The translations under genes and the position numbers were made by a program. Below, one piece after another: positions 352-15,983 of a stretch of 15,983 nucleotides of DNA. The stretch is from a bacterium (GTDB taxonomy: Bacteria; Verrucomicrobiota; Verrucomicrobiia; Limisphaerales; J093), in contig JAJXTA010000006.1 of the NCBI GenBank assembly GCA_021784265.1, positions 1-15,983 of the forward strand. The letters are read 5' to 3'. The notes beneath the pieces are model-generated. The model was not told the origin of the DNA, made no database searches, and saw nothing but the letters and a program-made list of their open reading frames with translations. Numbering within the stretch: position 1 is the first letter of the stretch; every line of letters starts with the position of its first letter.

Positions 352-1047
352 TCAGCGGTCCCGGAATGGTTGCGGGCAGACAGTGGCGACATCGACATGC
401 TCGAGGCTCGAGACTACCCAATCGGGGTTGCAGGCGCGCAACTCGGCCAAGCTGGCGCCGCCGGTCGCGACCGCCAGCGTGCGGGCTCCAATCGCCCGCC
501 CGCATTGGACATCGAAGGGGGTGTCGCCCACCACGAGAATCTCCTCCCCGGCGACCTCGCGCGCCAGGAGGCGGCAGCCGCGTTGCCGGGCGATGCCCGC
601 CAGCCGGTTGCGGTCCTCGTGGTCGTCGCCGAAGGCCCCGGTCTCGAAGAGCTCCCAGAGGCCGAAGTGCCGCAGCTTGATCTCGGCGCCCAGGCGGATG
701 TTGCCCGTGAGCAGGCCGAACCCAGGCGGGTGCGGCAGGGCGCGCAAGGCGCGAAGGAACGAGTTGACGCCGGGACATCGGGCTCCGACCGCCAGGGGCA
801 AGTGATGGTCGAGCAGAAAGACATAGCGGTCAAAGAAGCGCTGGAAGTTCTCTGGAACCGGCGCGACCTGGTGGTGATCAAAGAGCTCGCGGACCAGCGA
901 GGTGTCGGTGCGGCCGGCGAACTTGAGCTGGCGGGTCGCGTGCGGCAGGTCGAATTCAGTGGCCGCGGCCCGCTCAAAGGCCCGCACGCCCGCGCCCCCG
1001 GTGCGGATGAGCGTGCCGTCGATGTCGAAGAAGACCAGCTTGATCAC
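352..1047 (-). CDS. HAD-superfamily phosphatase, phosphoglycolate-phosphatase-like
   Basis: A 231-residue haloacid-dehalogenase-type hydrolase. All four HAD motifs are visible: motif I DIDGT at 8-12 (D8 nucleophile, D10 general acid/base), motif II Thr at T114 in LLTGN, motif III Lys at K124, and motif IV GDTPFD with D175 and D179. The segment between motifs I and II is long enough for an alpha-helical C1 cap, as in Gph-like phosphatases. The exact substrate cannot be read from the sequence. The frame is open for 107 codons upstream, but that part is low-complexity GC-rich translation. GTG at 1047 puts motif I at its usual distance from the N-terminus, so it is taken as the start. No Shine-Dalgarno sequence is seen. 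The gene is divergent from the GH98-like gene across 109 bp. Confidence 0.88.
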   Translation of the reverse strand: MIKLVFFDIDGTLIRTGGAGVRAFERAAATEFDLPHATRQLKFAGRTDTSLVRELFDHHQVAPVPENFQRFFDRYVFLLDHHLPLAVGARCPGVNSFLRALRALPHPPGFGLLTGNIRLGAEIKLRHFGLWELFETGAFGDDHEDRNRLAGIARQRGCRLLAREVAGEEILVVGDTPFDVQCGRAIGARTLAVATGGASLAELRACNPDWVVSSLEHVDVATVCPQPFRDR

Positions 1048-1053
1048 GGTCGC

Positions 1054-1081
1054 AAGGTAGCAGAACCGGGCCGGAAGCCAA
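1054..1081 (-). promoter_or_regulatory. Possible promoter for the HAD gene, leaderless type
   Basis: On the minus strand TTGGCT (1081-1076) and TACCTT (1059-1054) are 16 nt apart, and the GTG start follows the -10 box after exactly 6 nt. This is the same geometry as upstream of the FmdB-family gene. The -10 match is weak (3 of 6 bases, but fitting TANNNT), so this is a suggestion only. Confidence 0.25.
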
Positions 1082-1145
1082 GGGGGTAAGCGCCCACCGC
1101 GGCAACGCGGCGGCGCCGCCTGCGGCCGAAACCGCCCGTGGACGC

Positions 1146-1150
1146 AGGAG
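1146..1150 (+). promoter_or_regulatory. Shine-Dalgarno AGGAG deciding a GTG start
   Basis: AGGAG lies 6 nt before the GTG at 1157. It supports that codon as the start of the GH98-like gene, even though this gives an unusually long N-terminal region before the signal-peptide core. Confidence 0.7.
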
Positions 1151-1156
1151 AGAAAC

Positions 1157-3571
1157 GTGAGGCTTGACGTGAAGGGCGCCAGCAAACCATCGCAGAGTGC
1201 CGTGAGGAGTGGGCGGCCAACGGCGTCCGGGGCCGAGCGCCTGGCTCGCCGCCCGAACGTCGGGCTCTGGCTGCTGGTGGCGCTCTGGCTGGCGCGGCCG
1301 AGCCTGGCGACGCCGCCGCCGGGTTGCCGCCCGCCGGAGTTGGCGATCTCGCGGGAGCATCCACTCATCTTGCTCTATGGGCCTGGGACCGGCGAGCGGA
1401 CGGTCCGCTGTTGGGCGCATTTGCCGCCGGACCTCAAGCCCTACTGCGTGGTGACGATGGACCCGCCGGCCCTCGACCTGGAGGCCCGGCTCACGGGCTG
1501 GCGCGCGATGCTCCGCGTCGTGCAGGCCGCCGGCATCCCCATCGCGCTCCAGGTCTGTGGGGACGAGGCGGAGTGGACCACGCCGCTCCCGCTGATCGAG
1601 ACGTTGCTCCGCGAGTTTCCGTGCATCAAGATCGTCCAGGCCGTCGAGCTGCGGTGTGCTTACTACAGCCGGTTTGCCGGTGACGCCGACCTGGATACTC
1701 CGGCCAACCTGCGCTACCTGGCCGAGTTGCTCAAGTTGTGCGGGCGTTACGGCAAACATCTGTCGCTCCAAATCCAGGCCGACATGGTGCATCTGGGGAG
1801 CGATAAGCTGGCGGGACCGCTCCGCGCGACGTTCCGCCGCTACCGGGACTACTTTCTGCCGCAAAACGAGTGCATCGGGCCGCAGTATTACTGTGCCCAG
1901 ACGGCGACATGGGGGCTCTGGCTAGCCGGCTACTGCGAGCATTGGGGGATGGAACCCCAATGGTGGTGGTGGACGCAGGGGGAGTCCTATTTCCTCCGGC
2001 CCGGGCTCTTCGGCGTCGAGGCCGAGGTGCCCACCGACGAGGACGATTATGCGCGCCTCTACCGGGCGTTCATTATCGAAGGGGCCTTGATGGGGGCCAC
2101 GGTTTATTCGATCGAACCGCCGCAGGATATCTGGCAGGGGGACGGGACGGACCCGCGCCATTTCGACCAAGTGATCTACCCCACGCTGCGGCAGATCATC
2201 GACCAAGGCTTGATCGCCAGCCGGGCCGACGTGTTGCAGCAAGCCAAGGTGGCCTATCAGATGAAGGAGTGCGCCACGCTCCACCAATACGATGCGATGC
2301 TCCAGGACCTGGACTTCGAAGTGGCCCACGGCTGGCTGGCCCGGGCCGCCTACGGGGTGTTGCTGCCCCACCTGATGAAGGAGATGATTCCCGACACGGG
2401 CGGCCGTTACTACTTCATCCCCTTGCTGCCGGTGGGAACCCCGGGCGACGTCGCCCGCCGCTTTCGGAAAGTGATGCGGCCGGGGGAAGCCACCTCGGTG
2501 GGCGGCTATCGCGCCCTGTTGAACCGTTACTACCCGCCCACCGCGAACAGCGGTGCCGACGACGCCAATGACCGGGCCTGCGTGCTGCGGTGCGGGCGGG
2601 CGATCGCCGTAATGCAGTCGCGGGAGAACCTCTACGAGCGGCAGCCGTTCGCGGTGGAGGTGCCGCGTTGGGTCACGGACTTGGCGGCGGAGCGGCGGCC
2701 GACGGGGCTCCATCTGACTTGGGCGCGGGACCCGGCGGCGAAGGATTACCGGGTCTGGCGGCGGCGCCCGGGCGCGAAGGCCTATCCGGAATGGGAGCTG
2801 CTCCAGGATCACGTCCTCGAGCCGGCCTGCGACTTGGCCGGCGTGGAGCAGGGCGCGTTCGGCGTCACCGCCCACACGCCGGCCCGGCGCCGGCTGGCGG
2901 GGACGGTGAACTTCGGTGACTACCTCCTCTTCACGACCACGGAGAGCCCCATCGTGGAAGCGGTGGTGGTGAGCCCGGCTGGGGTGAGCCGGGCGCCGGT
3001 CCAGTGGTCGGACCCGGCGCTGCCGGCGCGGCAGGAGGTTTGGCGGATCCTCACCGGCGTCCCGGCGGGGCGCCGGGCGGAGGCGGAGGCGGTGCTGGCG
3101 CGCTTCGCCGGGTTGATCCGGGCCTTCGAGGCCCAGGACCTGGACCAGCTCATGGCGTTCTACGATCCGGCCTATCGCGATAGCAACGGCTACACCACCG
3201 AGTACGTCCGCCGGGCCTGGCGTTGGTGGTATCAGCGCACGGTGATCCCATACGCGGCGGCACAGGTCCGAAGCTGGGACTTCTCCCGCGCCGCGGCAGG
3301 CCTGGTCTCCCTCACCGCGTGGGACCGGTTCGGCGGCACCATGGTCTGGGATGAGCCCTTTGGTTATCACGGACGGGTTCGCATCCCGCGGCATCCGGGC
3401 GAACGGGTGACGTGGACCTGGCGCCGCGCCGCTGACGGCCAATGGCGAGTCGTGAGCACCGCACCGGCGTTGCCCAACTTCGGGGAGATGTTGTGGAACA
3501 GCCGCGGGCACGATGTGAGCCATACCATGGAGGAGTTCCGGGACCCGCCCCTGACCCGACCCGGGCGGTAA
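1157..3571 (+). CDS. Secreted GH98-like glycoside hydrolase with C-terminal FN3-like and NTF2-like regions
   Basis: An 804-residue protein starting at GTG behind a good AGGAG. Residues 29-51 form a signal peptide (RLARR, then a Trp/Leu-rich core, likely cleaved after PSLA at 51), preceded by about 28 extra residues. Residues about 60-480 resemble the GH98 catalytic barrel (family known for endo-beta-galactosidases on blood-group-type glycans). Shared segments are REHPLILLYG (66-75), LPPDLKPYCVV (89-99), VQAVELRC with E164, LLKLCGRYGKHLSLQI, QNECIGPQYY with E238, GLWLAGY, and SIEPPQDIWQ with E320. E164 and E320 are candidate catalytic acids. Four tryptophans (269-272) in a row are striking. 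Residues about 511-578 look FN3-like. Residues about 640-790 look NTF2/SnoaL-like (FYDPAY at 668-673). The family call is from remembered motifs. The substrate and activity are unknown. Confidence 0.72.
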   Translation: MRLDVKGASKPSQSAVRSGRPTASGAERLARRPNVGLWLLVALWLARPSLATPPPGCRPPELAISREHPLILLYGPGTGERTVRCWAHLPPDLKPYCVVTMDPPALDLEARLTGWRAMLRVVQAAGIPIALQVCGDEAEWTTPLPLIETLLREFPCIKIVQAVELRCAYYSRFAGDADLDTPANLRYLAELLKLCGRYGKHLSLQIQADMVHLGSDKLAGPLRATFRRYRDYFLPQNECIGPQYYCAQTATWGLWLAGYCEHWGMEPQWWWWTQGESYFLRPGLFGVEAEVPTDEDDYARLYRAFIIEGALMGATVYSIEPPQDIWQGDGTDPRHFDQVIYPTLRQIIDQGLIASRADVLQQAKVAYQMKECATLHQYDAMLQDLDFEVAHGWLARAAYGVLLPHLMKEMIPDTGGRYYFIPLLPVGTPGDVARRFRKVMRPGEATSVGGYRALLNRYYPPTANSGADDANDRACVLRCGRAIAVMQSRENLYERQPFAVEVPRWVTDLAAERRPTGLHLTWARDPAAKDYRVWRRRPGAKAYPEWELLQDHVLEPACDLAGVEQGAFGVTAHTPARRRLAGTVNFGDYLLFTTTESPIVEAVVVSPAGVSRAPVQWSDPALPARQEVWRILTGVPAGRRAEAEAVLARFAGLIRAFEAQDLDQLMAFYDPAYRDSNGYTTEYVRRAWRWWYQRTVIPYAAAQVRSWDFSRAAAGLVSLTAWDRFGGTMVWDEPFGYHGRVRIPRHPGERVTWTWRRAADGQWRVVSTAPALPNFGEMLWNSRGHDVSHTMEEFRDPPLTRPGR

Positions 3572-3577
3572 GCGACG

Positions 3578-3605
3578 CGCCAGAGCGAGCTGGCGGGGCC
3601 CCGCC
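3578..3605. repeat. Adjacent inverted repeats after the GH98-like gene
   Basis: CGCCAG (3578-3583) pairs with CTGGCG (3590-3595) over a 6-nt loop, and a perfect 14-bp palindrome GGCGGGGCCCCGCC (3592-3605) overlaps its 3' arm. The two folds are mutually exclusive. They begin 7 bp after the TAA stop and could end transcription, but no U-tract follows. The rest of 3606-3716 is GC-rich and shows nothing else recognisable. Confidence 0.3.
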
Positions 3606-3716
3606 GCCGCGCCCGGTCTCAGGGCGAGCGCACCGAACTGCGGCGTGCGGTGGGACGCGGTGTTCGGGGTTGCGGGGACGAACACGACAGGCGCCGGGGT
3701 CGAGTGAAAAGTGTGT

Positions 3717-3745
3717 TTGCTAATCAAGAGTGCAGAGCGCATACT
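3717..3745 (+). promoter_or_regulatory. Possible promoter for the Gfo/Idh/MocA gene
   Basis: TTGCTA (3717-3722) and CATACT (3740-3745) are separated by 17 nt, each 4 of 6 to consensus, in a locally AT-richer patch. The ATG at 3757 is 11 nt beyond the -10 box, giving a predicted leader of only about 5 nt. No Shine-Dalgarno sequence precedes that ATG. Confidence 0.35.
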
Positions 3746-3756
3746 GCTGTCTAAGT

Positions 3757-5130
3757 ATGAATCACCCAGAACAAACCGCCCTGTTACCCGGCTCACCGCC
3801 GCCGGGGGGAGTTTCACGCCGGCGGTTTCTCCGGCGCTCCTCGCTCACCGTGGCGGGGGCGATGGCCAGCCTGCCCTTCGTCACGCCGAGTCACGCCGCC
3901 CCCGACGACCCGATCCGCATCGGGCTGATCGGCTGCGGTGGGCGGGGCACGGGAGCGGTGCTCAACGCCCTGGGCGCGGCCACGAGGGTGAACTATCCCC
4001 AAGCCGGGTACCACACCGAGGACTTGGCCCAAGCGGGGCCGGTCCAGAATCGGAACATTCAGGTCGTCGCGTTGGCGGATGTCTTTCCGGACCGGGTGGC
4101 GCATTGTCGGGAGCAACTGCGGCCGTTGGGCCTGGAGCTCCCGGACGAGCGGTGTTTCACCGGGTTCGAGGCCTACCAGAAACTCCTGGCGGTGCCGGAG
4201 CTCAACTACGTGATTCTGGCGACCCCGCCTCATTTTCGTCCCCGGCACCTCATGGCCGCCATCGAAGCGGGCAAACATGTGTTCATGGAGAAGCCGGCGG
4301 CGGTGGATGGGCCGGGAGTGCGCTTGGTGCTGGCGGCGGGGGAGCTGGCCCAGCAGAAGGGCTTGGGGATCGTGGCCGGGACCCAGCGGCGGCATCAGCG
4401 CGGCTATCAGGAGACGATTCGCCGGGTGCAAGATGGCGCCATCGGCGAGGTGCTGGCGTGTCGGGCCTATTGGAACGGCGGCGTGATCTGGGTCATCGAG
4501 CGCCAAGCCGGGTGGAGCGACATGGAATGGCAACTGCGGAACTGGAACTACTTCACCTGGCTGGGGGGCGACCACATCGTCGAGCAGCACGTGCACAACC
4601 TCGACGTGATCAACTGGGTCTTGGGCGCCCATCCCCTCAAGGCCTATGGGATGGGCGGGCGGCAGGCCCGGCCGAACCAGACCTATGGGCACATCTACGA
4701 CCATTTCGCCGTCGAATTCGAGTACCCCAAAGGGGTGCGGCTCGCCAGTCAATGCCGTCAGATGAACGGCTGTGAGGGACGGGTCGAGGAAGGGGTGACG
4801 GGGACCAAGGGGGTGAGCAATTGCGCGAGCTGGTTGCGCCCGCAAGGGGGGGCGGCGTGGCGGTTTCGGGAGCCGGAGGGTAACCCGTATGAGCGGGAGC
4901 ACCAGGACCTCATCGCCAGCATCCGCGCCGGCAAACCGCTCAATGAGGCCCAGGCGGTCGCCGAAAGCACGCTGGCCGGCATCATGGGCCGCGAGTCGGC
5001 GTACAGCGGCCAGAGCGTTGACTGGGAGCAGGCGCTCAATTCCCAACACCGCTGGGGGCCAGACCGCTACGAGATGGGGAGCCTCCCCTTCCCTGAGGTG
5101 GCCGTGCCCGGGCAGTACAAGTTCAGTTGA
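3757..5130 (+). CDS. Tat-exported Gfo/Idh/MocA-family oxidoreductase
   Basis: A 457-residue NAD(P)-dependent oxidoreductase of the glucose-fructose oxidoreductase / inositol dehydrogenase family. A twin-arginine signal is clear: SRRRFLRRS at 20-28, a hydrophobic stretch, and probable cleavage after SHA near 47. The Rossmann fold starts at IRIGLIGCGGRG (53-64), with its GxGxxG-type loop. EKP at 178-180 is the conserved cofactor/substrate lysine motif. HNLDVINW (280-287) carries the His/Asp pair usual in the active site of this family. Tat export fits a protein folded with its dinucleotide before translocation. The sugar substrate is not readable. A GTG at 3730 is in frame, but the ATG at 3757 gives a normal Tat n-region. 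It follows the GH98-like gene by 185 bp, suggesting shared carbohydrate use. Confidence 0.9.
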   Translation: MNHPEQTALLPGSPPPGGVSRRRFLRRSSLTVAGAMASLPFVTPSHAAPDDPIRIGLIGCGGRGTGAVLNALGAATRVNYPQAGYHTEDLAQAGPVQNRNIQVVALADVFPDRVAHCREQLRPLGLELPDERCFTGFEAYQKLLAVPELNYVILATPPHFRPRHLMAAIEAGKHVFMEKPAAVDGPGVRLVLAAGELAQQKGLGIVAGTQRRHQRGYQETIRRVQDGAIGEVLACRAYWNGGVIWVIERQAGWSDMEWQLRNWNYFTWLGGDHIVEQHVHNLDVINWVLGAHPLKAYGMGGRQARPNQTYGHIYDHFAVEFEYPKGVRLASQCRQMNGCEGRVEEGVTGTKGVSNCASWLRPQGGAAWRFREPEGNPYEREHQDLIASIRAGKPLNEAQAVAESTLAGIMGRESAYSGQSVDWEQALNSQHRWGPDRYEMGSLPFPEVAVPGQYKFS

Positions 5131-5281
5131 CCACCTCCGCACGGCTGGGTGGGGCCGCGGCGGTGGGCTTTTTGGCGGGAGCGACGGGGCCGGGCTCCGC
5201 CGCGGGCACCGCCGAGGTCTTGCGTTGTCCCCGCCCCCGCCGCTAGCCTGCCTGACCCCGCGTGGCGGGGAACCTAGAATT

Positions 5282-6259
5282 ATGATCGCTTTAGTCACCG
5301 GCGGCGCGGGGTTCATCGGTTCACACTTGGCTGAGGCCTTGTGTCGCCGGGGAGCGCGGGTGCGGGTGTTGGATAACCTGAGCCAGGGCCGCGTGGAGAA
5401 TCTGGCCTGGCGGCGGTCGGGCGATGCGGTGGAGCTGATCGAGGCTGACCTCAACGACGAACCACGGCTCCGCCAGGCCGTCCAGGGTTGCGAGTGGGTG
5501 TTTCACGAGGCGGCGGCGGTGTCGGTGCCCTGGTCGGTCGCCGAACCGTTCCAAAGCAATGCGGTCAACCTGGACGGGACGCTGCGTTGCCTGGTCGCCG
5601 CCCAGGCAGCCGGGGTGAAGCGCTTTCTCTTCGCCTCTTCGTCGGCCATTTATGGCGACAGCGACGTGCCGGCCAAACACGAAGGCCTGCCGCCCAATCC
5701 GCTTTCCCCGTACGGCTTGCAGAAGTACGCCGGCGAGCAATACCTGCGGCTGTTCCACCAGCTCTATGGCCTGGCCACGGTCAGCCTCCGCTATTTCAAC
5801 GTCTTCGGGCCCCGCCAGGCCTTCAACTCGCCTTATTCCGGCGTCATCGCTCGGTTCTGCACCACGCTGCTCGCCGGGGAACGGCCCACGATCTTTGGCG
5901 ACGGCGGCCAGTCGCGCGACTTTATCTACGTCGAGAACGTCGTGGCGGCCAATCTCCTGGCGGCGGAAGCCCCGGCGGCGCGCGCCGCCGGGCGCGTGTT
6001 CAACGTGGGCGGCGGCCAGAGCATCACGTTGCTCGAGTTGGCCGCCGAGTTGCGGCGTCTCACCCGGCCGGAGTTGACGCCGTGCTTCGCCCCCGCCCGG
6101 GCGGGCGACGTGCGCGCCTCGCTGGCGGAGATCACCGCCGCCCGGCAGGCCCTGGGCTACGACGTCCGCGTTCCCTGGCAGGCCGGACTGGAGCGGACGC
6201 TGGCGTTTTATCGGGGGTCGGCCACGGGAGGCTTGCCGCGGGGCGGGCCCGCGGGTTAG
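5282..6259 (+). CDS. UDP-hexose 4-epimerase-like SDR, WbpP/TviC type
   Basis: A 325-residue extended short-chain dehydrogenase/reductase. The NAD-binding TGGAGFIGSH begins at residue 6, D31 ends the second strand (adenosine ribose binding), and the catalytic set is the Ser of SSSAIYG (119-125) with Y144 and K148 in YGLQK. LRYFNVFGPRQ (169-179) and GDGGQSRDFIYVENV (206-220) match the UDP-sugar epimerase family and most resemble UDP-GlcNAc/GalNAc C4-epimerases such as WbpP. The exact sugar is uncertain, and a UDP-glucose 4-epimerase or a dehydratase-like member is possible. The start is fixed by the Rossmann motif. The frame is open further upstream but overlaps the previous gene. Only a weak GGGGAA lies upstream. 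The gap to the oxidoreductase gene is 151 bp. Likely role: nucleotide-sugar supply for surface polysaccharide. Confidence 0.85.
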   Translation: MIALVTGGAGFIGSHLAEALCRRGARVRVLDNLSQGRVENLAWRRSGDAVELIEADLNDEPRLRQAVQGCEWVFHEAAAVSVPWSVAEPFQSNAVNLDGTLRCLVAAQAAGVKRFLFASSSAIYGDSDVPAKHEGLPPNPLSPYGLQKYAGEQYLRLFHQLYGLATVSLRYFNVFGPRQAFNSPYSGVIARFCTTLLAGERPTIFGDGGQSRDFIYVENVVAANLLAAEAPAARAAGRVFNVGGGQSITLLELAAELRRLTRPELTPCFAPARAGDVRASLAEITAARQALGYDVRVPWQAGLERTLAFYRGSATGGLPRGGPAG

Positions 6260-6557: not shown

Positions 6558-7211
6558 ATGTCTGACCTCTTTCCGAAGTGGACCAACCGCCTCCCGCTCT
6601 ACGCGGCGGTGAGCGGCGTGCTCGCCGTGACCTCCGTGACGGCGGCGGTCTGGTATTATTTCACCCCCAAGTACGCCCGGGTGGGCTACCAGCCGCTGCA
6701 GCCGGTGACCTTCTCCCACGCCACCCACGCCGACCAGTTGGGGATCGACTGCCGCTACTGTCACAACGGGGTCGAAAAGTCGTGGTTTTCCAACGTGCCC
6801 GCCAGCACGGTGTGCATGAACTGCCATGTGCAGGTGCTCAAGGATGACCCCCGCCTGGCCCTGGTGCGGGAGAGCGCCCAGTCGGGGCGCCCGATCCCCT
6901 GGGTGCAGGTGCATAAGCTGCCCGATTATGTCTTCTTCAACCATTCAGTGCACGTGAACCGGGGGATCAGTTGCGTCGCCTGCCACGGCCAGGTGAATCA
7001 TGAGGATGAAATCCGGCATCTCCAGCCGCTGAGCATGACGTTCTGTCTGGATTGCCACCGGCAGCCCGCGGCCAATCTGCGCCCGCCCAACCAAGTCTAT
7101 AACTTGGACTGGCAGCCCGCCAGCCCGGAGAAGCAACTGGCCGATGGGACGCGGTTCATGAAGGAGTGGAAGGTGGAGTCCCTGGAGAATTGCACCACGT
7201 GTCACCGATGA
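6558..7211 (+). CDS. actA: ACIII pentaheme cytochrome c subunit ActA
   Basis: A 217-residue protein with one N-terminal membrane helix (about 13-35) and a periplasmic domain. It carries five CxxCH heme-binding motifs at C65-H69, C86-H90, C139-H143, C163-H167 and C212-H216; the last sits one residue from the C-terminus. Five hemes, one anchor and position as first gene before a fused Mo/Fe-S protein and an NrfD protein are the hallmarks of ActA in alternative complex III. There it takes electrons from the ActB Fe-S chain and passes them towards ActE or an external cytochrome c. The ATG at 6558 has no Shine-Dalgarno sequence but is the only start giving the expected short cytoplasmic tail. Its stop overlaps the next start as ATGA. 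Confidence 0.95.
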   Translation: MSDLFPKWTNRLPLYAAVSGVLAVTSVTAAVWYYFTPKYARVGYQPLQPVTFSHATHADQLGIDCRYCHNGVEKSWFSNVPASTVCMNCHVQVLKDDPRLALVRESAQSGRPIPWVQVHKLPDYVFFNHSVHVNRGISCVACHGQVNHEDEIRHLQPLSMTFCLDCHRQPAANLRPPNQVYNLDWQPASPEKQLADGTRFMKEWKVESLENCTTCHR

Positions 7212-10200
7212 AAGACCTTGCCCCCCCCACGGCCGCGCCGACCACGGGGCGGCAGTATTGGCGCAGCCTGGACGAGCTGGCGGACACGCCGGAGTTCCGC
7301 GCCTGGATGGAGCGGGAGTTCCCCGCCGGGGCCAGCGAGTTCACCGACCCGCTCTCGCGCCGCTACTTCGTGAAGATCATGTCCGCCTCGTTTCTGCTGG
7401 CGGGGGTGGGGCTGACGGGGTGCCGGCGGCCGGTGGAGACGATCCTGCCCTTCTCGAAGCTCCCGCAGGGCTATCTGTACGGGGTGCCGCAGTATTATGC
7501 CACGGCGATGCCCGCGCCGGGCGGGGCGCTCCCGCTGGTGGTCCGGGCCAACGACGGGCGCCCGACCAAGATCGAGGGAAATCCGGAGCATCCCCTGAAC
7601 CGCCCCGGGGCAGGGCAGAGCCAGGTCTTCAAGCAGGGGGCGACCGACGTCTTCGCCCAAGCAGCGATCCTGGGGTTATATGACCCCGACCGGGCGCAAC
7701 GATTCACCTTCAAAGGGGAGAATGTCGCCCGGGAGAAGGCGCTGGATTTCCTGACACAGACCGCGCGCCAAGCGGCGGCCAACCAAGGGCGCGGGCTTTG
7801 CTTTCTGGTGGAGGCGAGCGATGCCCCGTCGCGCGCCCGCTTGCAGAAGGTCATCAGCGACAAGTACCCGCAGGCGCGGTGGTTCGGGTTCAACCCGGTG
7901 GAGTTCGACGTGCCTCGCCAGGCGGCCACGCTGGCGTTTGGCCAGCCGGTCAGGCCCTTCGTCCAGTTGGAGCGGGCCCGGCGCATCGTTGCCCTGGACT
8001 GTGATTTCCTCGGGCTGGAGGCCGATGCCTTCCGCCAGATCCGCGGCTTTGCGCGGGGGCGGCGGCTGGAGCGGCCGACCGACGACATGAGCCGGCTCTA
8101 CGTGGTGGAGGGGGTGTTCAGCCTCACCGGGATGAATGCCGACCACCGGCTGGCGGTGCCGGCGGGGGCGATCTTCCCCGTGGCGTGTCGCTTGGCGGCG
8201 GAGGTCATCGAACAGAGCCACGCCCAGGACCAGGACAGCCGGGCCGGGGAGTTCCGCCAAGCCCTGCTCAAGGCCAGCGCGGGGTTGAAGGTGGACGCGG
8301 GGTGGGTGCGGGAATGCGTGAAGGACCTGTTGGCCCATCGCGGGGAGGTGGTCGTGCTGGCGGGACATCGGCAGCCGGTCGAAGTCCATTTGCTGGCCCA
8401 GGCCATCAATTTCCATCTCGGGGCGGTGGGGAGCACCGTGCTGCTCGCACCCGCGTCCGATCCCGGGTTGGGCTCCTTGAGCGCACTGGCGCGCGCGTTG
8501 AACGCCGGCGAGGTCGAGACCTTGGCCATCTTGGGCGGCAACCCGGCCTACAGCGCCCCGGCCGACCTGAACTGGCCGCAGGCCCAACGCAAAGCCCGCA
8601 CCGTGCTGCGCCTGGGCGACTACGAGGACGAGACCTTTGCCCTGACGGACTGGCACTTGCCCGCCGCCCATTTCCTGGAGTCGTGGGGGGATGCGCGGAG
8701 CAGCGACGGCACCCTGGTCCCGGTGCAGCCGTTGATCGAGCCGCTGTTTGGGGGCGTGACGGAGCTGGAAGTGCTGGCGCGCCTGGGGGGTGTCGCCGAC
8801 CCGAGCCCCTACGCGGTCGTGCGCGAGACCTTCCGCCAATTGGCGCCCGCGGGCGTGTTCGAGGAGAACTGGAAGAAGTTCCTGCACGACGGCTACTGGG
8901 AAGGGAGCGCCGCGGCGCCGGTCACCGCCGAGTATGACTGGGCCAGCGCCGCCCCGGCCATCCTGGCGGGGCGGGTGCTCCCGCCGCCGACGGCCCAGCA
9001 GCTCGAGGTGGTCTTTCAGCGGGATTACCGGCTGGACGACGGGCGGTACAATAACAATGGGTGGTTACAGGAGCTGCCTGACCCGATTACCAAGCTGACG
9101 TGGGATAACGTGATTTTGCTCAGCGAGCGCACGGCCGCCGAGCTGGGCGTGGTTGTGGTCGATCATGCCATGAACAACCTGCGGGTGCCGGTGGTGCGCC
9201 TGGAGGCAGGGGGGCGGGCGATTGAGGGGCCGGCCTGGATCCAGCCTGGTCTGGCGGACTATCAACTGGTGGTCACGCTGGGTTATGGCCGGACGGCCAC
9301 GGGTCGCGTTGGGGTGGGGACCGGCTACAACGGTTATCCGCTCCGCACCAGCACCGAGCCGAACCTGGCCACCGGCGCCAAGCTGAGCCTCACCGGGCGG
9401 GACTACTCCCTGGCCTGTGCCCAGGACCACTGGGGAATGGAGGGGCGGCCGATCGTCCGCGAGGCCAACCTCGAGACCTATCGGCGGGAACCGGAGTTTG
9501 TCGAGGCGGTGACCTACCAGGAGCCACCGGTGGTCAAGCCGCTTTACCCCAATCCGTTGGACGTGCCCAACGCCCAAGGCGTGACCCCCAAGCAAGCGGC
9601 GATGAATTGGTGGGGGCTGGTGGTGGACCTCAACTCCTGCGTCGGTTGCTCGGCCTGCGTGATTGCCTGCCAGAGCGAAAACAACATTCCGATCGTCGGC
9701 AAGGACCAAGTCCGGCGCCACCGCGAGATGCACTGGATCCGGATTGACCGCTATTACACGGGCCCCGTGGCGGACCCCCAGGCGGTGGTCCAACCGATGA
9801 TGTGCCAGCATTGCGAGTCGGCCCCGTGCGAGAATGTCTGTCCGGTCAACGCCACCGTGCATGATGCCGAGGGGCTGAACCAGATGGTGTATAACCGCTG
9901 CGTTGGGACACGGTATTGCTCCAACAACTGCCCCTATAAGGTCCGGCGCTTTAATTTCTTCGATTACAACCGCCGGCCGCTCAACGGCCTGTATAAGAGC
10001 CCGCTGACCAGCTTCACCAACGGGGAGTGGGAGTTGAAACGCTGGTTCTTCAATCCCGACCGCGGCAGCCGCAAGGAGGATGAGTGGGACCTCCTCAAGC
10101 TGGCCAAGAACCCGGACGTGACCGTGCGGATGCGCGGGGTGATGGAGAAGTGTAGCATGTGCGTGCAGCGGATCGAGCAGGCCAAGATCGCGCGCAAGGT

Positions 10201-10543
10201 GCGGGCCGGGGCCTCGGGGGAGGTCGAGGTGCCCGATGGCGTGATCCAGACGGCCTGCCAGCAGGCGTGCCCGGCGGAGGCCATTGTCTTTGGCAACCTG
10301 AAGGATCCGACCACCCAGGTCTCTCGGGCACACGCCCAGACGCGCAACTACGCGGTGTTGAGTTCCTTCCTGACTAAGCCGCGAGTCACCTATCTGGCCC
10401 GTGTGCGCAATCCCAACCCGGCGATGCCCGATTATCATACGCAACCGTTGAGCACGACTGAATTCCTGAGCCATGGCAACCAGCTCCGCCCGCTGGGGGC
10501 CGCCGGCGGCGAGGCCGGGCGGGAACAGAAAGGAGCACCCTAA
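7208..10543 (+). CDS. actB: ACIII subunit ActB, fused molybdopterin-like and ferredoxin-like domains
   Basis: A 1111-residue fusion of a molybdopterin-oxidoreductase-like half (about 75-780) and a four-cluster ferredoxin half. About 50 residues precede SRRYFVK (50-56), the late twin-arginine signal typical of this family. LTGC at 69-72 is lipobox-like. Fe-S cysteines: C811/C814/C817/C821, C866/C869/C874/C878, C898/C904/C908, C982/C985 and C1017/C1021. The third group reads CVGTRYC, with T901 where a fourth-cluster cysteine would be, as expected for the [3Fe-4S] cluster of ActB. In characterised ACIII the molybdopterin-like half carries no cofactor and is a scaffold. Role: Fe-S wire from ActC quinol oxidation to the ActA hemes. 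The start ATG overlaps the actA stop (ATGA), implying coupling. An in-frame GTG/ATG further upstream inside actA is less likely. Confidence 0.95.
10531..10535 (+). promoter_or_regulatory. Shine-Dalgarno AGGAG for actC
   Basis: AGGAG lies 7 nt before the ATG at 10543 and inside the last codons of actB. The stop and start share one base (TAATG), so this site permits both re-initiation and fresh initiation. Confidence 0.75.
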
Positions 10544-11964
10544 TGGCCGAGGCCATTGATCATCTGCGGATCGTCCCGCCGCCGCGGGAGCTGGAGCGGG
10601 TGCCGCTGGTGGCCAACCAGCGCGGCTTGGGCTGGTTGTCCGATGCCATCGCCGGGATTGCCGAGCGCAAGACCCCTACTTGGTGGTGGGTTGCCTTTGG
10701 GATCAGCGTGGTGCTGATGAGCGTGTGTTTTTCCTTGATCCTCTACCTCATGTCCACCGGCGTGGGGGTGTGGGGCTTGGGTCATCCGGTGATGTGGGGC
10801 TGGGCGATTGTCAACTTCGTTTGGTGGATCGGCATCGGCCACGCGGGGACGCTGATCTCCGCCATCCTGTTCCTGTTGCGCCAGCGGTGGCGGACGGCGG
10901 TGAACCGGGCGGCCGAGGCGATGACCATCTTCGCGGTCATGTGCGCGGGCATCTACCCTGTCATTCACATTGGGCGCATTTGGTATGGCTGGTGGCTGCT
11001 GCCGTTCCCTAACTCGAACAGCATTTGGCCCCAGTTCCGCTCGCCGTTGATGTGGGACGTGTTCGCGGTTTCGACCTACTTCACGGTCTCGGTGTTGTTC
11101 TGGTATATGGGCTTGATCCCGGACTTAGCGGTGATGCGGGACCGTTCCAAGAGCCGCCTGCGCCAAGCGCTCTACGGTTTCTTCGCCTTGGGCTGGACCG
11201 GGTCCAACCGGCATTGGAGCAACTACGAGCGGGCGTACCTAATCCTGGCCGGCTTGTCCACGCCGCTGGTGCTCTCGGTGCACAGTATCGTGTCCTTGGA
11301 CTTCGCCGTTTCGCAGTTGCCGGGCTGGCACACGACGATCTTCCCGCCGTATTTCGTGGCGGGGGCGGTGTTCTCCGGCTTCGGGATGGTGCTGACGCTG
11401 TTGATTCCGATCCGGAAGATCTGCAAGTTGGAGGAAGTGATCACCATGAAGCACATCGAGGTGATGTGCAAGGTGACGCTGGCGACGGGCTCGATTGTCG
11501 GTTACGCCTACACCATGGAGGTCTTTATCGCCTGGTACAGCGGCAACGCCTTCGAGCGCTTTGCCTTCTGGAACCGGGCGTTCGGCCCCTACTGGTGGGC
11601 GTATTGGACGATGCTCTCGTGCAACGTTTTCATCCCGCAACTGTTCTGGTTCCGCAAGGTGCGCCGCAATCTCTACGCCGTGTTTATCATTTCCATTTGC
11701 GTCAACATCGGGATGTGGTTCGAGCGCTTCGTCATCATTGTCACTTCGTTGAACCGGGAGTTCCTCCCCTCGAACTGGAATTATTACATCCCGACGTGGG
11801 TGGATATTTGCACCTTCATCGGGACCTTCGGCCTGTTCTTCACCTTCTTCCTGCTCTTCATGCGCTTCGTGCCCATCGTGGCGATTGCCGAGGTCAAAGG
11901 GGTCACGCCCCAGGCCGATCCGCATCATCCGCTCGGGGGGGCCAAACTGGGAGGAGGCCATTGA
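10543..11964 (+). CDS. actC: ACIII quinol-oxidising membrane subunit ActC (NrfD-like)
   Basis: A 473-residue polytopic membrane protein of the NrfD/PsrC family with about ten predicted helices beginning near residue 45. [10 protein letters not shown] places H142 and SPLMWDVF places D172. These match the conserved His/Asp pair that, as I recall from ACIII structures, lines the menaquinol site next to the ActB Fe-S clusters. [11 protein letters not shown] in the late helices is also typical of ActC. The protein oxidises quinol at the periplasmic face, and related NrfD proteins have been proposed to couple this to proton movement. It starts on ATG with AGGAG 7 nt upstream and shares one base with the actB stop. 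The gene ends in TGATG, followed by a duplicated junction before actD. Highly similar in kind to ActF, its paralogue in the same operon. Confidence 0.94.
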
Positions 11965-12005
11965 TGAGGCACCCAGGCACCCACGGGAAAGGAGGCCACT
12001 GATGA
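11953..12005 (+). repeat. Duplicated RBS/stop/start junction between actC and actD
   Basis: GGAGGCCATTGATGA (11953-11967) and GGAGGCCACTGATGA (11991-12005) match at 14 of 15 bases, 38 bp apart. Each unit carries a GGAGG, a Gly-His-stop coding end and an overlapping TGATG. The first copy ends actC. The second ends a 12-codon mini-ORF and starts actD. Confidence 0.85.
11964..12002 (+). other. 12-codon mini-ORF between actC and actD
   Basis: ATG at 11964, sharing its A with the actC stop, opens a 12-residue frame ([12 protein letters not shown]) closed by TGA at 12000-12002, which in turn overlaps the actD ATG. GGAGG (11953-11957) stands 6 nt before it. It probably arose by duplication of the junction, not as a protein gene. 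It could carry ribosomes from actC to actD. Confidence 0.45.
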
Positions 12006-12541
12006 CGGCGACGCCCACGCGCTACGGCTTGGTGGCCGAGTTCGAGACGCCGGCGGCGACGATGCATGCGGCCGCCCGGCTGCGGGACGAGGGGTTTCAG
12101 CACTGGGACGTGTTCACCCCCTATCCGGTGCACGGGATGGACAAGGCCATGGGCCTCAAGAGCTCGAAGGTGGGCTGGTTTTCCTTCTTGGGCGGGGTCA
12201 CCGGCTACACCACCGGCATGTTGATGATCTGGTTCATGAACAAGCTCGACTATCCGATCCCGGTGGGGGGCAAGCCGCTCTTTAGTCCGTTCTCGGCCTT
12301 CCCGCCCTCCTACGAGCTGACCATTCTGTTCGGCTCGTTCGGGGCGTTGCTCGGAATGCTGTTTTTGAATCGGCTGCCCCGCTTGCATCACCCGCTGTTG
12401 AAGCATCGGCGGTTTGCCTTGGCGAGCCACGACCGCTTCTTTATCGTGGTCGAGACCAGTGATCCGCGGTATCGGGAAGGGGAGACGCGCACCCTGCTGG
12501 AGTCGTTGGGCAGCACGCAGGTCGAACCCGTCGAGGAGTGA
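12002..12541 (+). CDS. actD: ACIII subunit ActD (DUF3341)
   Basis: A 179-residue protein of the DUF3341 family, which is ActD of alternative complex III. A soluble alpha/beta part (1-56), starting with RYGLVAEFETPAAT, is followed by two membrane helices (about 57-78 and 104-124). Between them lies a loop with KPLFSPFSAFPPSYE, and a cytoplasmic tail follows, including SHDRFFIVV. In known complexes ActD packs against the membrane subunits and binds no redox cofactor. The ATG at 12002 is chosen because GGAGG (11991-11995) lies 6 nt before it and family members begin close to RYGL. A longer frame begins at 11885 inside actC but adds only low-complexity Arg/Pro sequence. The gene continues the actABC order, and its stop is followed 2 nt later by the actE ATG. 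Confidence 0.92.
   Translation: MTATPTRYGLVAEFETPAATMHAAARLRDEGFQHWDVFTPYPVHGMDKAMGLKSSKVGWFSFLGGVTGYTTGMLMIWFMNKLDYPIPVGGKPLFSPFSAFPPSYELTILFGSFGALLGMLFLNRLPRLHHPLLKHRRFALASHDRFFIVVETSDPRYREGETRTLLESLGSTQVEPVEE
12533..12538 (+). promoter_or_regulatory. Shine-Dalgarno GAGGAG deciding the actE start
   Basis: GAGGAG sits 5 nt before the ATG at 12544. A GTG at 12538 is also in frame and overlaps the actD stop, but it falls on the last base of this site and so cannot use it. The ATG is preferred. Confidence 0.65.
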
Positions 12542-12543
12542 TC

Positions 12544-13155
12544 ATGCGTTACATCTTCGCTGTCTTTGCCCTCCTGGTGGTCCTGGTGGTGAGCGTGGCC
12601 GGGTTCCGGGGCCAGATGTCGCGCCGGCCTCCGATCGAGTTGTTCCCTGACATGGTGCGGCAGCCACGGGTGCGCCCGGAGAGTTACGCCGAGTTCTTCA
12701 CCAACGGTTTCGGCTCGCGGTTGCCGGTGGCGGGCACCATCGCCCGCGATGCCGCCTACCAGGACCTTCCCCTCAACACCGGGCGTGTCCCGGGCACCAC
12801 CAACTTCGTGGAGTTGAGCCCGGTGCCGATGACGGCCGAGTTGCTCGCCCGTGGGCGGGACCGGTTTCAGATCAGTTGTCTGCCCTGTCACGGGGCGTTG
12901 GCCGACGGCAAGGGCATTACCACCAAATACGGCATGACGGTCATTGCCAACCTGCACGATGCGCGCATCGTGCAGATGGGCGATGGGGAGATCTTCAACA
13001 CCATCACCTACGGCAAGAACCTGATGCAGGGTTACGGCGCGAACATTGCCATCCGCGATCGCTGGGCCATCATCGCCTATGTGCGGGCACTGCAACTGAG
13101 CCAATTGGGGGCGCGCGACGACGTGCCGCCCGCTCAGCGCGCCGCGTTGCGTTAA
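12544..13155 (+). CDS. actE: ACIII monoheme cytochrome c subunit ActE
   Basis: A 203-residue cytochrome c with one N-terminal hydrophobic helix (about 3-20) and a class I cytochrome domain. The single heme site is CLPCH at 112-116. M161 in NLMQGYG is the likely distal ligand. SRRPPIELFPDM (26-37) is the ActE signature just after the membrane segment. ActE is the mobile exit cytochrome of the complex, handing electrons to the terminal oxidase. Where many ActE proteins, as I recall them, have a lipobox Cys (AGCRG), this one reads AGFRG with F21, so an uncleaved helix anchor is more likely than a lipid. It starts 2 nt after the actD stop and ends 6 nt before actF. Confidence 0.92.
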   Translation: MRYIFAVFALLVVLVVSVAGFRGQMSRRPPIELFPDMVRQPRVRPESYAEFFTNGFGSRLPVAGTIARDAAYQDLPLNTGRVPGTTNFVELSPVPMTAELLARGRDRFQISCLPCHGALADGKGITTKYGMTVIANLHDARIVQMGDGEIFNTITYGKNLMQGYGANIAIRDRWAIIAYVRALQLSQLGARDDVPPAQRAALR

Positions 13156-13161
13156 CTGCCT

Positions 13162-14433
13162 ATGTCTGCTTCTGCTCCGACTCCTGCCGCCGGCCCGTTG
13201 GACTTGGCCCGGTGGCGCAATCTCCCGCTGGGTCTGATGGCCGTGGGCGGCCTGGGCTGCTTGGTCACGCTGCTGGTGAACAGCCGGCAGTTTGGCTTTT
13301 CGTGGCTGCTGGGGTTCATGTTCTATCTCAGCCTGGCGCTGGGCGCGTTGTTCCTGGTCTTGATGCACCACCTGTTCGATGCGAGCTGGTCGGTGGCCAT
13401 CCGCCGGCTCTGCGAGCATCTGGCGGCGTTGTGCTTCCCGTGGTTGGCGTTGCTCTTTGTGCCCATCGCCCTGTTGGCGCCTCGCATCTACCCCTGGATG
13501 CGGGAAACCGGGACGACGGACCATTTCTTGTCCGCGAAAGCGCCCCTGTTCACCCGCCCGATGTTCTACGTGGTGGCGGTGTTCTGTTTCTGGATCTGGG
13601 GGCTGTTCACGCACCGCTTGCGCCGCTGGTCGCTCCAACAGGACGCCGATGGGGCGGCGCGCTGCACCCAAATGATGCGGCGTTATTCGGGCGGCGGGGT
13701 AGTCCTCTATCCGATCGTGCTCACCCTGGCGGCGATCATGTGGGTCAAGGCCCTCCAGCATCAGTGGTTCTCGACGATGTATGGGGTGTATTACTTCGCC
13801 GAGAGTGTCTGGGTGACGGTGGCGACCGTCTATTTCATCGCCCTGCTGCTCAAGTCCGCCGGCAAGCTCGACGCCCTGCTGCAAGAGACCCAATTCTACA
13901 TGCTGGGTTCGTTGCTGTTGGCGTTCACGGTCTTCTACGCCTACATTCATTTCGCCCAGTACTTCATCATCTGGAACGCCAATTTGCCGGAGGAAACGTA
14001 TTGGTACGTCCTGCGGGAGCGGGGCAGTTGGTGGTACGTGGGGATGATCATCATCTTCGGCCATTTCTTCCTCCCCTTCCTGGCGCTGCTCCGGATTGAC
14101 GTGAAGCTGAAGTTTGCCTGCATGCTGCCGCTCTGTCTGTGGGCGTGGTTGATGCATTACTTCGACATGGCGTTCAACATCATGCCGGTGTTGCACCCGA
14201 ACAACTTCAGCTTCACCGGGATGTGGGCGGACCTCTCCTGCCTGGCCCTGATGGGGGGTGTGTTGCTGCGGGCGTTTGTGCGCGACTGCGGGCGTTATCC
14301 CCTCTACCCGCTGAAGGACCCGCGGCTGGGCGAGTGCCTGGGCGTTTACCACGCCCCCGCGGTCGCGTCCACCCCGGCCAGTGCGGCCCCGCCGCTCGGC
14401 ACGGCGGGAGCCAAACCGAAAACCGCCTCCTGA
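13162..14433 (+). CDS. actF: ACIII second NrfD-like membrane subunit ActF
   Basis: A 423-residue polytopic membrane protein with about ten helices, beginning near residue 22 (LPLGLMAVGG), and a Pro/Ala-rich C-terminal tail from about 395. It is the second NrfD-type subunit of alternative complex III, a paralogue of ActC with no direct Fe-S neighbour. Family features include FMFYLSLALGALFLVLMHHL (52-71), the HYFDMAFNIMPV segment late in the protein, and RYPLYPLKDPRL near the end. In known ACIII it pairs with ActC in the membrane and has been proposed to take part in proton transfer; a quinol site is less certain here. ATG at 13162 follows the actE stop by 6 nt without a Shine-Dalgarno sequence. 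Its stop overlaps the next start as TGATG. Confidence 0.93.
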   Translation: MSASAPTPAAGPLDLARWRNLPLGLMAVGGLGCLVTLLVNSRQFGFSWLLGFMFYLSLALGALFLVLMHHLFDASWSVAIRRLCEHLAALCFPWLALLFVPIALLAPRIYPWMRETGTTDHFLSAKAPLFTRPMFYVVAVFCFWIWGLFTHRLRRWSLQQDADGAARCTQMMRRYSGGGVVLYPIVLTLAAIMWVKALQHQWFSTMYGVYYFAESVWVTVATVYFIALLLKSAGKLDALLQETQFYMLGSLLLAFTVFYAYIHFAQYFIIWNANLPEETYWYVLRERGSWWYVGMIIIFGHFFLPFLALLRIDVKLKFACMLPLCLWAWLMHYFDMAFNIMPVLHPNNFSFTGMWADLSCLALMGGVLLRAFVRDCGRYPLYPLKDPRLGECLGVYHAPAVASTPASAAPPLGTAGAKPKTAS

Positions 14434-14804
14434 TGAAACTGCCCTCTTGTTGTGCGGACAAGGCCAGCCTCGGCGCTTGGATCGTCGGGATCGCCGGCCT
14501 GTTCTTGATCCTGGTCGTGTTAGCCGGTTTGGTGCGCCAACGCACCGCCCCTCCCGCCATCGACGAGGCGCGCAAGGAACTGCGGCGGCGCAATCTGGTC
14601 GAAATGCGCGCCGCCAACCAAGCCGCTCTGGAAACCTACGCCCTTTTGGACCCGACCAAAGGAATTGTCCGCCTGCCCATCGAGCGGGCGATGCAACTGA
14701 CGCTGGAGCTCTGGCGGGACCCGGCTGCCGGGCGCTCGAATCTGCTGAGCCGGCTGGCCACGGCGACGGCCAAACCGCCGGAGAAGCCCAATCCCTACGA
14801 GTGA
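14433..14804 (+). CDS. Small single-TM protein associated with the ACIII operon
   Basis: A 123-residue protein with one N-terminal membrane helix (about 14-34, SLGAWIVGIAGLFLILVVLAG region), a charged Arg/Glu-rich helix (45-65), and a conserved-looking core, YALLDPTKGIVRLPIERAMQ (69-88). It ends in a Pro/Lys-rich tail. I recall similar short proteins with a G-I-V-R-I/L-P-I-x-R-A-M motif beside ACIII, SCO and oxidase genes in Verrucomicrobiota and Planctomycetes. No function is established. Two cysteines (6-7) precede the helix on the probable cytoplasmic side. The start overlaps the actF stop (TGATG), so co-translation is likely. A role as an accessory or assembly subunit of ACIII or the linked oxidase is an inference. 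Confidence 0.82.
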   Translation: MKLPSCCADKASLGAWIVGIAGLFLILVVLAGLVRQRTAPPAIDEARKELRRRNLVEMRAANQAALETYALLDPTKGIVRLPIERAMQLTLELWRDPAAGRSNLLSRLATATAKPPEKPNPYE

Positions 14805-14846
14805 TCGGTGCGCGGTCCGTCGCTGCTGTTGACTGCCGACTCGCCC

Positions 14847-15983
14847 ATGAGTTCCTCGCCATCTTCAGTTTCCCCCACACCTGGGGCATCCCCAGCTCCG
14901 CCCGCGCCGCCGCGGGCGAGCGTGGCGGAGATTGACCGGTCCTGTCGCGGGCCGGTGTTGCTGCTCGCCGTGACCGGGGCTTGGTGGCTGGTGGTGGCCT
15001 CCGGGCTGGCGGAGTTGGCGTCCATCAAACTCCACGCCCCCGGCATGCTGGCGAACTGCGCGTGGTTGACCTACGGCCGGGTGCACCCCGCGGCGTGGAA
15101 TGCCTTTGCCTACGGGTTTGCCACGCCGGTGGGGTTGGGCGTTGCCGCGTGGTTGATGTGCCGCTTGGCGGGCGCCTGTCTCCTGGGCGGGCGCACCATC
15201 GCCTTGGCCACCCTTTTGTGGAATGCGGGGCTGTTGTTGGGGGTGTTGGGCATTCTCGGCGGGGATAGCACGGGTCTGCCGACCCTCGAGCTGCCCACCT
15301 ATGCCTCGCCGTCATTGTTTTTGGCCTACCTTGGCATCGCCGTGTGGGTGGTCCTGGCCTTCCATCAGCGGCGGCAGGCCGCGGTCTATGTGTCCGAGTG
15401 GTACCTGTTGGGCGGCCTGTTCAGTTTCCCCTGGCTTTACTCGGCTGCCAACCTGCTGGCGGTGTTTTATCCGTTGCGAGGCGTGCTGCAGGCGGCCACC
15501 CAGGCCTGGTACGCCCACGGCCTGCTGACCCTCTGGTTCACTTCCCTGAGCTTGGCGGTCATCTTCTACCTCGGTCCCAAGCTGACCGGCGTCCCCGTCC
15601 CGAGCCGGAGCTTGGCGACGTTCGGATTTTGGACCCTGGCACTCTTTGGGAGCCTGGGGGGGCTGACCCGGTATAGCGGCGGGCCGTTCCCGGTCTGGAT
15701 GACGAGTCTGAGTGTGGTGGCGGAGGTCCTGACGGTGGTTCCGGTGGTGGCGGTGGGGCTCAACTTAGTGGGGGTCTGGCGGGGGCAAGCGGCCACAGTC
15801 AAGGCCAGTCCGCCCCTGTGGTTCGCCACCGCCGCGCTGGTGGCGTTTCTGGTCGCGGGGGTGCTGGGAGCGCTCAACGCCCTGCCGAGCATCAGCCGCG
15901 TGACTCACTTTACGCTAGTCACTCCGGCCCTCGACCTCCTCAATCTGCAAGGGATGGTAGCGCTGGCCCTGCTCGGGGCGCTT
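14847..15983 (+). CDS. Degenerate cbb3-type oxidase subunit I-like membrane protein (partial, runs off the window)
   Basis: 379 residues are visible and the frame is open to the last base. A Pro/Ser-rich N-terminus (1-30) precedes eight to ten membrane helices. The pattern resembles CcoN: LTYGRVHP...NA (74-86), FSFPWLYSAANL (192-203), WYAHGLLTLWF (221-231), YLGPKLTG (241-248), FGFWTLAL (259-266) and THFT (353-356). The metal ligands appear lost. Only H224 matches a CuB histidine. The HH pair expected near 279-282 reads GPFP, the His expected near 83 is Ala, and the HxH expected after THFT reads TPA (359-361). It may be an electron-inactive scaffold. It lies 42 bp after the small TM protein. 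ATG 14847 has no Shine-Dalgarno sequence; GTG 14808 is an alternative start. Confidence 0.75.
   Translation, partial: MSSSPSSVSPTPGASPAPPAPPRASVAEIDRSCRGPVLLLAVTGAWWLVVASGLAELASIKLHAPGMLANCAWLTYGRVHPAAWNAFAYGFATPVGLGVAAWLMCRLAGACLLGGRTIALATLLWNAGLLLGVLGILGGDSTGLPTLELPTYASPSLFLAYLGIAVWVVLAFHQRRQAAVYVSEWYLLGGLFSFPWLYSAANLLAVFYPLRGVLQAATQAWYAHGLLTLWFTSLSLAVIFYLGPKLTGVPVPSRSLATFGFWTLALFGSLGGLTRYSGGPFPVWMTSLSVVAEVLTVVPVVAVGLNLVGVWRGQAATVKASPPLWFATAALVAFLVAGVLGALNALPSISRVTHFTLVTPALDLLNLQGMVALALLGAL

Follow-up and report, generated by a model that had tools for sequence, protein, structure and literature searches.

We describe an emptied cbb3 oxidase subunit, encoded at the end of a 15,983 bp contig from a verrucomicrobial genome of the order Limisphaerales (JAJXTA010000006.1, assembly GCA_021784265.1; the whole contig, C478, is hereafter the window). 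The gene closes an operon for alternative complex III (ACIII). Its product has the fold of CcoN, subunit I of cbb3 type heme-copper oxidases, and has lost all but one of the histidines that bind heme and copper. Such copies have arisen repeatedly in ACIII operons of Verrucomicrobiota. We suggest, at a probability of roughly 0.57, that the decayed CcoN is kept as a membrane scaffold that anchors CcoO, and with it a membrane cytochrome c, at ACIII, with electrons passing to a separate acceptor.

The CcoN-like protein and its ligand positions

The CcoN-like frame is open from an ATG at position 14847 (or a GTG at 14808) to the end of the contig at 15983, and the 3' end of the gene is missing. The translated query has the COX1 fold and matches PF00115 with 100.5 bits (cut-off 34.8). 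Against the ccoN model TIGR00780, the truncated query scores 71.8 bits (cut-off 583). Six ligand-bearing relatives linked to ACIII score 215-256 bits and are likewise under the cut-off, which therefore does not tell intact from ligand-less copies. The solved structures related to the query are five, all of them cytochrome c oxidase chains, with the CcoN structures 9g6b, 8smr and 3mk7 as the best.

CcoN of 3MK7 served as reference for the ligands (H60, H207, Y251, H257, H258, H345 and H347). Aligned with it, the query has A83, H224, G268, T274, R275, L362 and L364 at these sites, and a second method, pairwise alignment to an intact relative, gave the identical seven residues. The query thus retains one of the six heme/CuB histidines, H224, and lacks the cross-link tyrosine. 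A first-pass annotation, made from the window's letters, had also found only H224, the first CuB histidine, to survive and had placed the first low-spin heme histidine at A83; both alignments bear this out. Its positions for the CuB histidine pair (GPFP, 279-282) and for the HxH motif (T359/A361) were slightly off, the actual places being T274/R275 and L362/L364.

P0001, a relative with 95% identity whose sequence extends to residue 459, agrees with the query at every ligand site. Its predicted structure (predicted local distance difference test, pLDDT, 96.5) matches the CcoN/COX1 fold. Ligands hidden in the unsequenced C-terminus, a possibility that the first-pass annotation had left to be checked, are ruled out: all ligand sites lie before residue 365, and P0001, with its longer sequence, shows the same losses. 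We also rejected NorB as a concealed identity; the histidine columns for the low-spin heme, the high-spin heme and FeB are vacant too. The first-pass view of the protein, as a CcoN homologue that does no catalysis and belongs to an ACIII operon, agrees with both the ligand sites and the operon matches, and it is nearly certain that this CcoN-fold protein is non-catalytic. Database homologues do carry the name cbb3 subunit I, the mis-annotation that had been suspected.

Ligand loss among relatives

Ligand histidines were counted in an alignment of 169 rows (the query, 113 homologues and 55 locus rows), in which some genes are counted twice. No histidine is left in 94 rows; one is present in 53 rows, two in 11, three in 1, five in 2 and six in 8. 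Both rows with five have no letter at H60, so 10 rows keep every ligand that is covered. The rows form two distinct groups, 158 with zero to two histidines and 10 with five or six.

In the sample of the order, 50 of 58 genomes, including that of the window, have a strong match (E <= 1e-37). Among the other eight, G007 and G030 have weak hits or a fragment only and six have no match. A ligand-less copy is found in 48 of the 50 matching genomes (48/58 overall). G047 and G048 carry an intact copy only, and G051 carries an intact and a ligand-less one, located in this single genome bin on C548 (L045) and C174 (L056), respectively. The same gene order with all ligands kept occurs in L044 and L046, from the order of the query, and in many loci of its class. 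A half-emptied state is seen in L180 and L181 (the same genes as L153 and L154), where H60 and H347 are kept and the ligands of heme b3 and CuB are gone. Named relatives belong to Verrucomicrobiota (P0035, P0048; L034, L035). Ligand loss is a trait of the whole lineage, with many carriers among Verrucomicrobiota.

L170, L171, L193 and L194 are free-standing CcoN-CcoO pairs with all ligands and with no Act match in 17-19 kb; they are intact outgroups.

Repeated loss in place

A tree of the ACIII proteins ActB, ActC and ActF (96 loci, 25 intact and 71 not) requires at least 10 changes of the trait, also when only starred branches are considered. If regain is disallowed, it requires 14 losses at the midpoint root and 12-17 on the collapsed tree. 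A tree of the CcoN-like gene, built with the ligand columns excluded, needs 3 changes; without regain these become 5 losses as drawn and at least 3 with weak branches collapsed, and the upper figure of 38 losses counts every unresolved ligand-less branch separately. L155 is ligand-less, yet nested among intact relatives in both trees. An approximately unbiased (AU) test rejects a single ligand-less clade for the gene (p 5.9e-6; 26 of 100 rows) and for the ACIII proteins (p 1.5e-4; 23 of 96 rows), in both cases on a hand-picked set of rows, chosen with the trees already in view. A single ancestral loss was allowed by our first tree, which had few ligand-bearing rows, and was abandoned when wider sampling required at least three or 10 changes.

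The gene tree and the ACIII tree disagree on the number of losses, and long branches, an unusual composition of certain rows and module exchange between operons may all contribute. At least three losses can safely be claimed from these trees. The first-pass annotation had proposed that a non-catalytic subunit was recruited to ACIII. This does not hold: since some relatives with the same operon order have every ligand, the ACIII-linked cbb3 oxidase decayed in place, and more than once.

Retained neighbours: ActF, CcoO and a membrane cytochrome c

Neighbours were counted in 51 loci with the gene, of which L035 and L077 are one contig. ActF is located upstream in 49 of them, a co-occurrence that the first-pass annotation had proposed to check; L034 starts at the edge of its contig, and the 1.2 kb ahead of the gene in L045 contain no Act match. 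Downstream, a CcoO-type gene with a CxxCH motif is present in 50/51 loci, the exception being L083 at a contig end, and a membrane cytochrome c gene follows CcoO in 47/51. Three of the four loci with no separate cytochrome c gene are at contig ends, and in L060 two CxxCH motifs occur in one frame. It should be noted that the window stops before the position of CcoO, and data on CcoO come from related loci only. All five CcoO-type proteins scanned (L042, L044, L045, L047 and L175) match FixO, PF02433, over the cut-off.

Counted over distinct genes, the axial methionine pattern of CcoO is found behind 31/31 intact copies and 64/77 ligand-less ones. A cbb3-like module thus trails ACIII, its c-heme motifs largely retained and its catalytic subunit empty. 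The CcoO-type and membrane cytochrome c genes, which retain their heme motifs, are the main clue to function.

Some CcoO proteins deviate. By eye, a cysteine replaces the expected axial methionine in L162, L183, L185, L189 and L190, which are of one family; this suggests an altered heme c ligand in these five putative proteins. The spacing from CxxCH to the methionine exceeds 120 residues in 20 of the 64 distinct CcoO genes that have the motif behind ligand-less copies, and in 0/31 behind intact ones. In L047 (10841-11830, + strand) a ribosomal L7/L12 C-terminal domain (PF00542, E 5.8e-15; the domain was tested in L047 alone) is inserted between CxxCH and the methionine motif.

Selection and conservation

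The ratio of nonsynonymous to synonymous substitution (dN/dS), calculated after Nei-Gojobori with our own script, is 0.10, 0.20, 0.23, 0.28, 0.38 and 0.73 in ligand-less pairs, with one pair saturated. Five intact pairs gave 0.011-0.076 and three were saturated. Purifying selection on the ligand-less copies is relaxed, not gone.

A comparison of 32 intact and 79 ligand-less rows shows 28 positions, for the most part G, W and P, that are conserved in both groups (86-100%). At 43 positions that are fixed in intact rows, conservation drops below 50% in ligand-less rows. These include five of the six ligand columns, and Y317, T215 and Y223, which we take to be K-channel residues, are also among the positions lost or weakened. 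H60 and Y251 are not among the 43, though their columns differ in the 169-row alignment. At the thresholds used, the only newly fixed position in ligand-less rows is one glycine, and no His, Cys, Glu or Asp has become conserved in them. The catalytic machinery is lost and the framework retained.

Possible electron acceptors

The genome of the window has an A-type COX1 on C355 (best model CtaD/CoxA, under its cut-off on the partial protein), a piece of a canonical CcoN on C313, and bd oxidase matches on C95 and C378. Each of the 31 ligand-less genomes of the class set has two or more matches to PF00115, a family to which nitric oxide reductase (NOR) belongs too; one of the matches is usually the ligand-less gene itself. 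The ACIII-linked gene is the single PF00115 match in 2 of 25 intact class genomes (G058 and G203), and likewise in G047 of the order. A rule by which ligands are kept where the gene encodes the sole heme-copper oxidase fails, as three such genomes keep them and five do not.

Nine of the 67 ligand-less loci with room for it have, 1.4-2.4 kb past the ligand-less gene and in the same orientation, a gene for oxidase subunit I behind CcoO and cytochrome c. The best model for this gene in L183 and L166, the two loci scored and the source of the predicted A-type assignment, is CtaD/CoxA at 545 and 655 bits (under the 671-bit cut-off); CoxB-type genes are located beside it, and in L183 also a subunit III-type gene. 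These nine loci, with a putative A-type oxidase next in line, favour the bridge to a true oxidase that the first-pass annotation had offered as one option. None of the six intact loci with room has an adjacent oxidase gene, and 20 intact loci lack the room.

In G034 (C17), G021 (C114) and G031 (C260), a COX1 match and a second copy of ActD share a strand and lie 4.1-4.5 kb apart. These genomes, which also have the ligand-less type, apparently possess a further ACIII that has an oxidase as its direct partner.

A proposed scaffold for c-type hemes and its alternatives

In brief, we suggest that the ancestor was a cbb3 subunit I serving as oxidase partner of ACIII in Verrucomicrobiota, and that the heme b3 and CuB ligands were lost, joined in the query by those of low-spin heme b. 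The emptied CcoN would still hold a CcoO-type cytochrome c, next to the membrane-anchored cytochrome c encoded after it. Electrons from the ActA and ActE hemes of ACIII would run via the hemes of these two proteins to a separate end acceptor, which in most genomes may be another oxidase, in some encoded directly behind, or else a soluble carrier. A c-heme wire docked by the emptied CcoN would explain why CcoO is retained. The physical complex, the electron path and the role as adaptor are what we infer. That Verrucomicrobiota repeatedly turned their ACIII-linked cbb3 into a cofactor-free docking module, keeping the c-heme wire and hard-wiring ACIII to another acceptor, often an oxidase, is a more tentative proposal, with chances slightly short of even.

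Several observations weigh against the scaffold. No adjacent oxidase gene is present in 58 of the 67 ligand-less loci, and by coordinates the intact gene of G314 does have an oxidase gene behind it. Five ligand-less genomes, G004, G008, G011, G052 and G056, have no further COX1 match, and a second heme-copper oxidase is therefore not required; bd matches are strong in the first four and only weak in G056. For 13 of the 77 ligand-less copies no CcoO methionine pattern was detected downstream; one of the 13 is cut by a contig end, the methionine of L182 was overlooked by the pattern and five are of the cysteine family. Ligand-less copies also evolve faster than intact ones, and the pair at 0.73 can be read as decay.

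Such decay would fit a pseudogene, left over from a useless oxidase and on its way out, and the long branches and raised dN/dS of ligand-less copies point that way. Stop-free frames in 48/58 genomes of the order (the window's own included) and in many of the class argue against it, however, as do dN/dS below 1 in all six measurable ligand-less pairs, the 28 conserved positions, the retained CcoO neighbour and the pLDDT of the model, and we consider it very unlikely. Even harder to credit is a misalignment, with ligands present and merely displaced. Gap placement at H258 does differ between two alignments for 24 rows, and some rows have one or two histidines at ligand columns, but for the query both alignment methods agree, and the stretches flanking the sites align to 3mk7 free of gaps.

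That the protein is a membrane subunit which has taken on a new activity, such as an ion or quinone channel or another cofactor in the emptied pocket, is unlikely, though the idea has points in its favour. The cavity of an oxidase core is free to change, partial cofactor states exist (L180 and L181 keep exactly H60 and H347), and genomes lacking another heme-copper oxidase would be accommodated too. Speaking against it are the single glycine as sole newly fixed position, the lack of new conserved His, Cys, Glu or Asp and the loss or weakening of the presumed K-channel positions. For the quinone-related role mentioned in the first-pass annotation no evidence turned up, and no direct test was made. 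An assembly or docking factor that places the true oxidase against ACIII, with CcoO and cytochrome c doing other work, would suit the nine ligand-less loci in which an oxidase gene comes next and the ACIII-oxidase supercomplexes described in passages of PMC5928083; this we regard as rather improbable, given that it leaves the CcoO gene and its CxxCH in 50/51 loci unexplained. The scaffold that docks CcoO and cytochrome c remains our preferred reading.

Operon layout in the window

The source genome is fragmented (4.33 Mb in 870 contigs, 75.6% complete). On the + strand of the window the genes run ActA, ActB, ActC, ActD, ActE, ActF, a protein of 123 aa with a single transmembrane (TM) segment, and the CcoN-like frame; the ActABCDEF order with a PF11821 ActD and an NrfD-type ActC identifies the operon as that of ACIII. 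The small protein is present in most loci of the order and has no family match over cut-off. Upstream of ACIII, at 352-6259, the frames look by eye, with no search made, like genes for a HAD-type hydrolase on the - strand, for an oxidoreductase that has a signal region, and for an NAD-dependent epimerase.

Table 1. Genes of the ACIII operon and ligand-site residues of the CcoN-like protein in the window
Feature	Position	Strand	Basis
ActA, multiheme c-type cytochrome	6558..7211	+	Cytochrome_C7 and QrcA-like matches; first gene of the operon in relatives
ActB, molybdopterin-oxidoreductase-like plus FeS subunit	7208..10543 (start approximate)	+	TIGR04519, Fer4, QrcC/QrcB-like matches
ActC, NrfD-family membrane subunit	10543..11964	+	PF03916, E 4e-22
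ActD	12002..12541 (start approximate)	+	PF11821, E 4.5e-64
ActE, monoheme cytochrome c	12538..13155	+	PF13442, E 9.3e-10
ActF, membrane subunit	13162..14433	+	Operon position and conservation in relatives; no family match over cut-off
Small 123-aa single-TM protein between ActF and CcoN-like gene	14433..14804	+	TM by sequence inspection
Ligand-less CcoN-fold protein, truncated by contig end	14847..15983	+	
A83 at low-spin heme b ligand H60	15093..15095	+	Two alignments
H224 at CuB ligand H207, sole ligand retained	15516..15518	+	Two alignments
G268 at cross-link tyrosine Y251	15648..15650	+	Two alignments
T274 R275 at CuB pair H257 H258	15666..15671	+	Two alignments
L362 and L364 at heme b3 ligand H345 and heme b ligand H347	15930..15938	+	Two alignments

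Methanotrophs and comparison with known systems

Genes of the pmoA type are present in all six genomes of family f48, five of which have the CcoN-like gene, with no match in G065. The L173 gene of this family matches proteins named Methylacidiphilum kamchatkense, M. infernorum and Methylacidimicrobium tartarophylax. The named Methylacidiphilum and Methylacidimicrobium proteins, together with L172 and L173, have one of the six histidines. We did not find a canonical ccoN in the six pmoA-bearing genomes, where the ccoN model gave nothing above 34 bits.

Passages of a review (PMC8498564) credit the methanotroph isolates, with one exception, with oxidases of the cbb3, aa3 and ba3 types, place ACIII next to the cbb3 genes, and cite Refojo 2010 for the cbb3 operon linked to ACIII in verrucomicrobial methanotrophs and in Opitutaceae. 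The ACIII-adjacent cbb3 is tied to high oxygen affinity in a passage of the Methylacidiphilum genome paper (PMC6688271). Compared with this published operon, the order found here is the same, ACIII and then a CcoN-type gene, and the Methylacidiphilum copies represent the same operon type. It is described there as a cbb3 oxidase, but the sequences from M. kamchatkense, M. infernorum and Methylacidimicrobium have one of six histidines, and by sequence the ACIII-adjacent 'cbb3' gene of these methanotrophs does not encode a working oxidase. ACIII beside cbb3 genes is thus already published, and what is new here is the recurrent pseudo-oxidase in ACIII operons; the titles, the openings of abstracts and some passages of the literature searched contained no report of a ligand-less ACIII-linked CcoN.

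Conclusions about respiratory capacity and oxygen affinity are often drawn from the presence of cbb3 genes, and a gene named cbb3 subunit I is devoid of the O2-reducing residues in 48/58 genomes of the order and in Methylacidiphilum. If our reading is true, many members of the class, methanotrophs included, would carry pseudo-oxidases named high-affinity cbb3 oxidases. The natural series with all ligands, the low-spin pair only or none lets one ask what non-catalytic role the oxidase partner has for ACIII, and ligand-less operons offer a genetic handle on how ACIII passes electrons on.

Set against the catalytic CcoN of cbb3 (C-type) oxidases, the query lacks five of the six metal ligands and the cross-link tyrosine. 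There is a likeness to the ACIII-aa3 and ACIII-caa3 supercomplexes of Flavobacterium johnsoniae and Rhodothermus marinus, in which, according to passages of PMC8552683 and PMC5928083, ACIII hands electrons directly to the oxidase through additional c hemes. As described in those passages, the extra heme is located in ActA or in oxidase subunit IIc, whereas here it would be carried by CcoO and the membrane cytochrome c, seated on a ligand-less CcoN.
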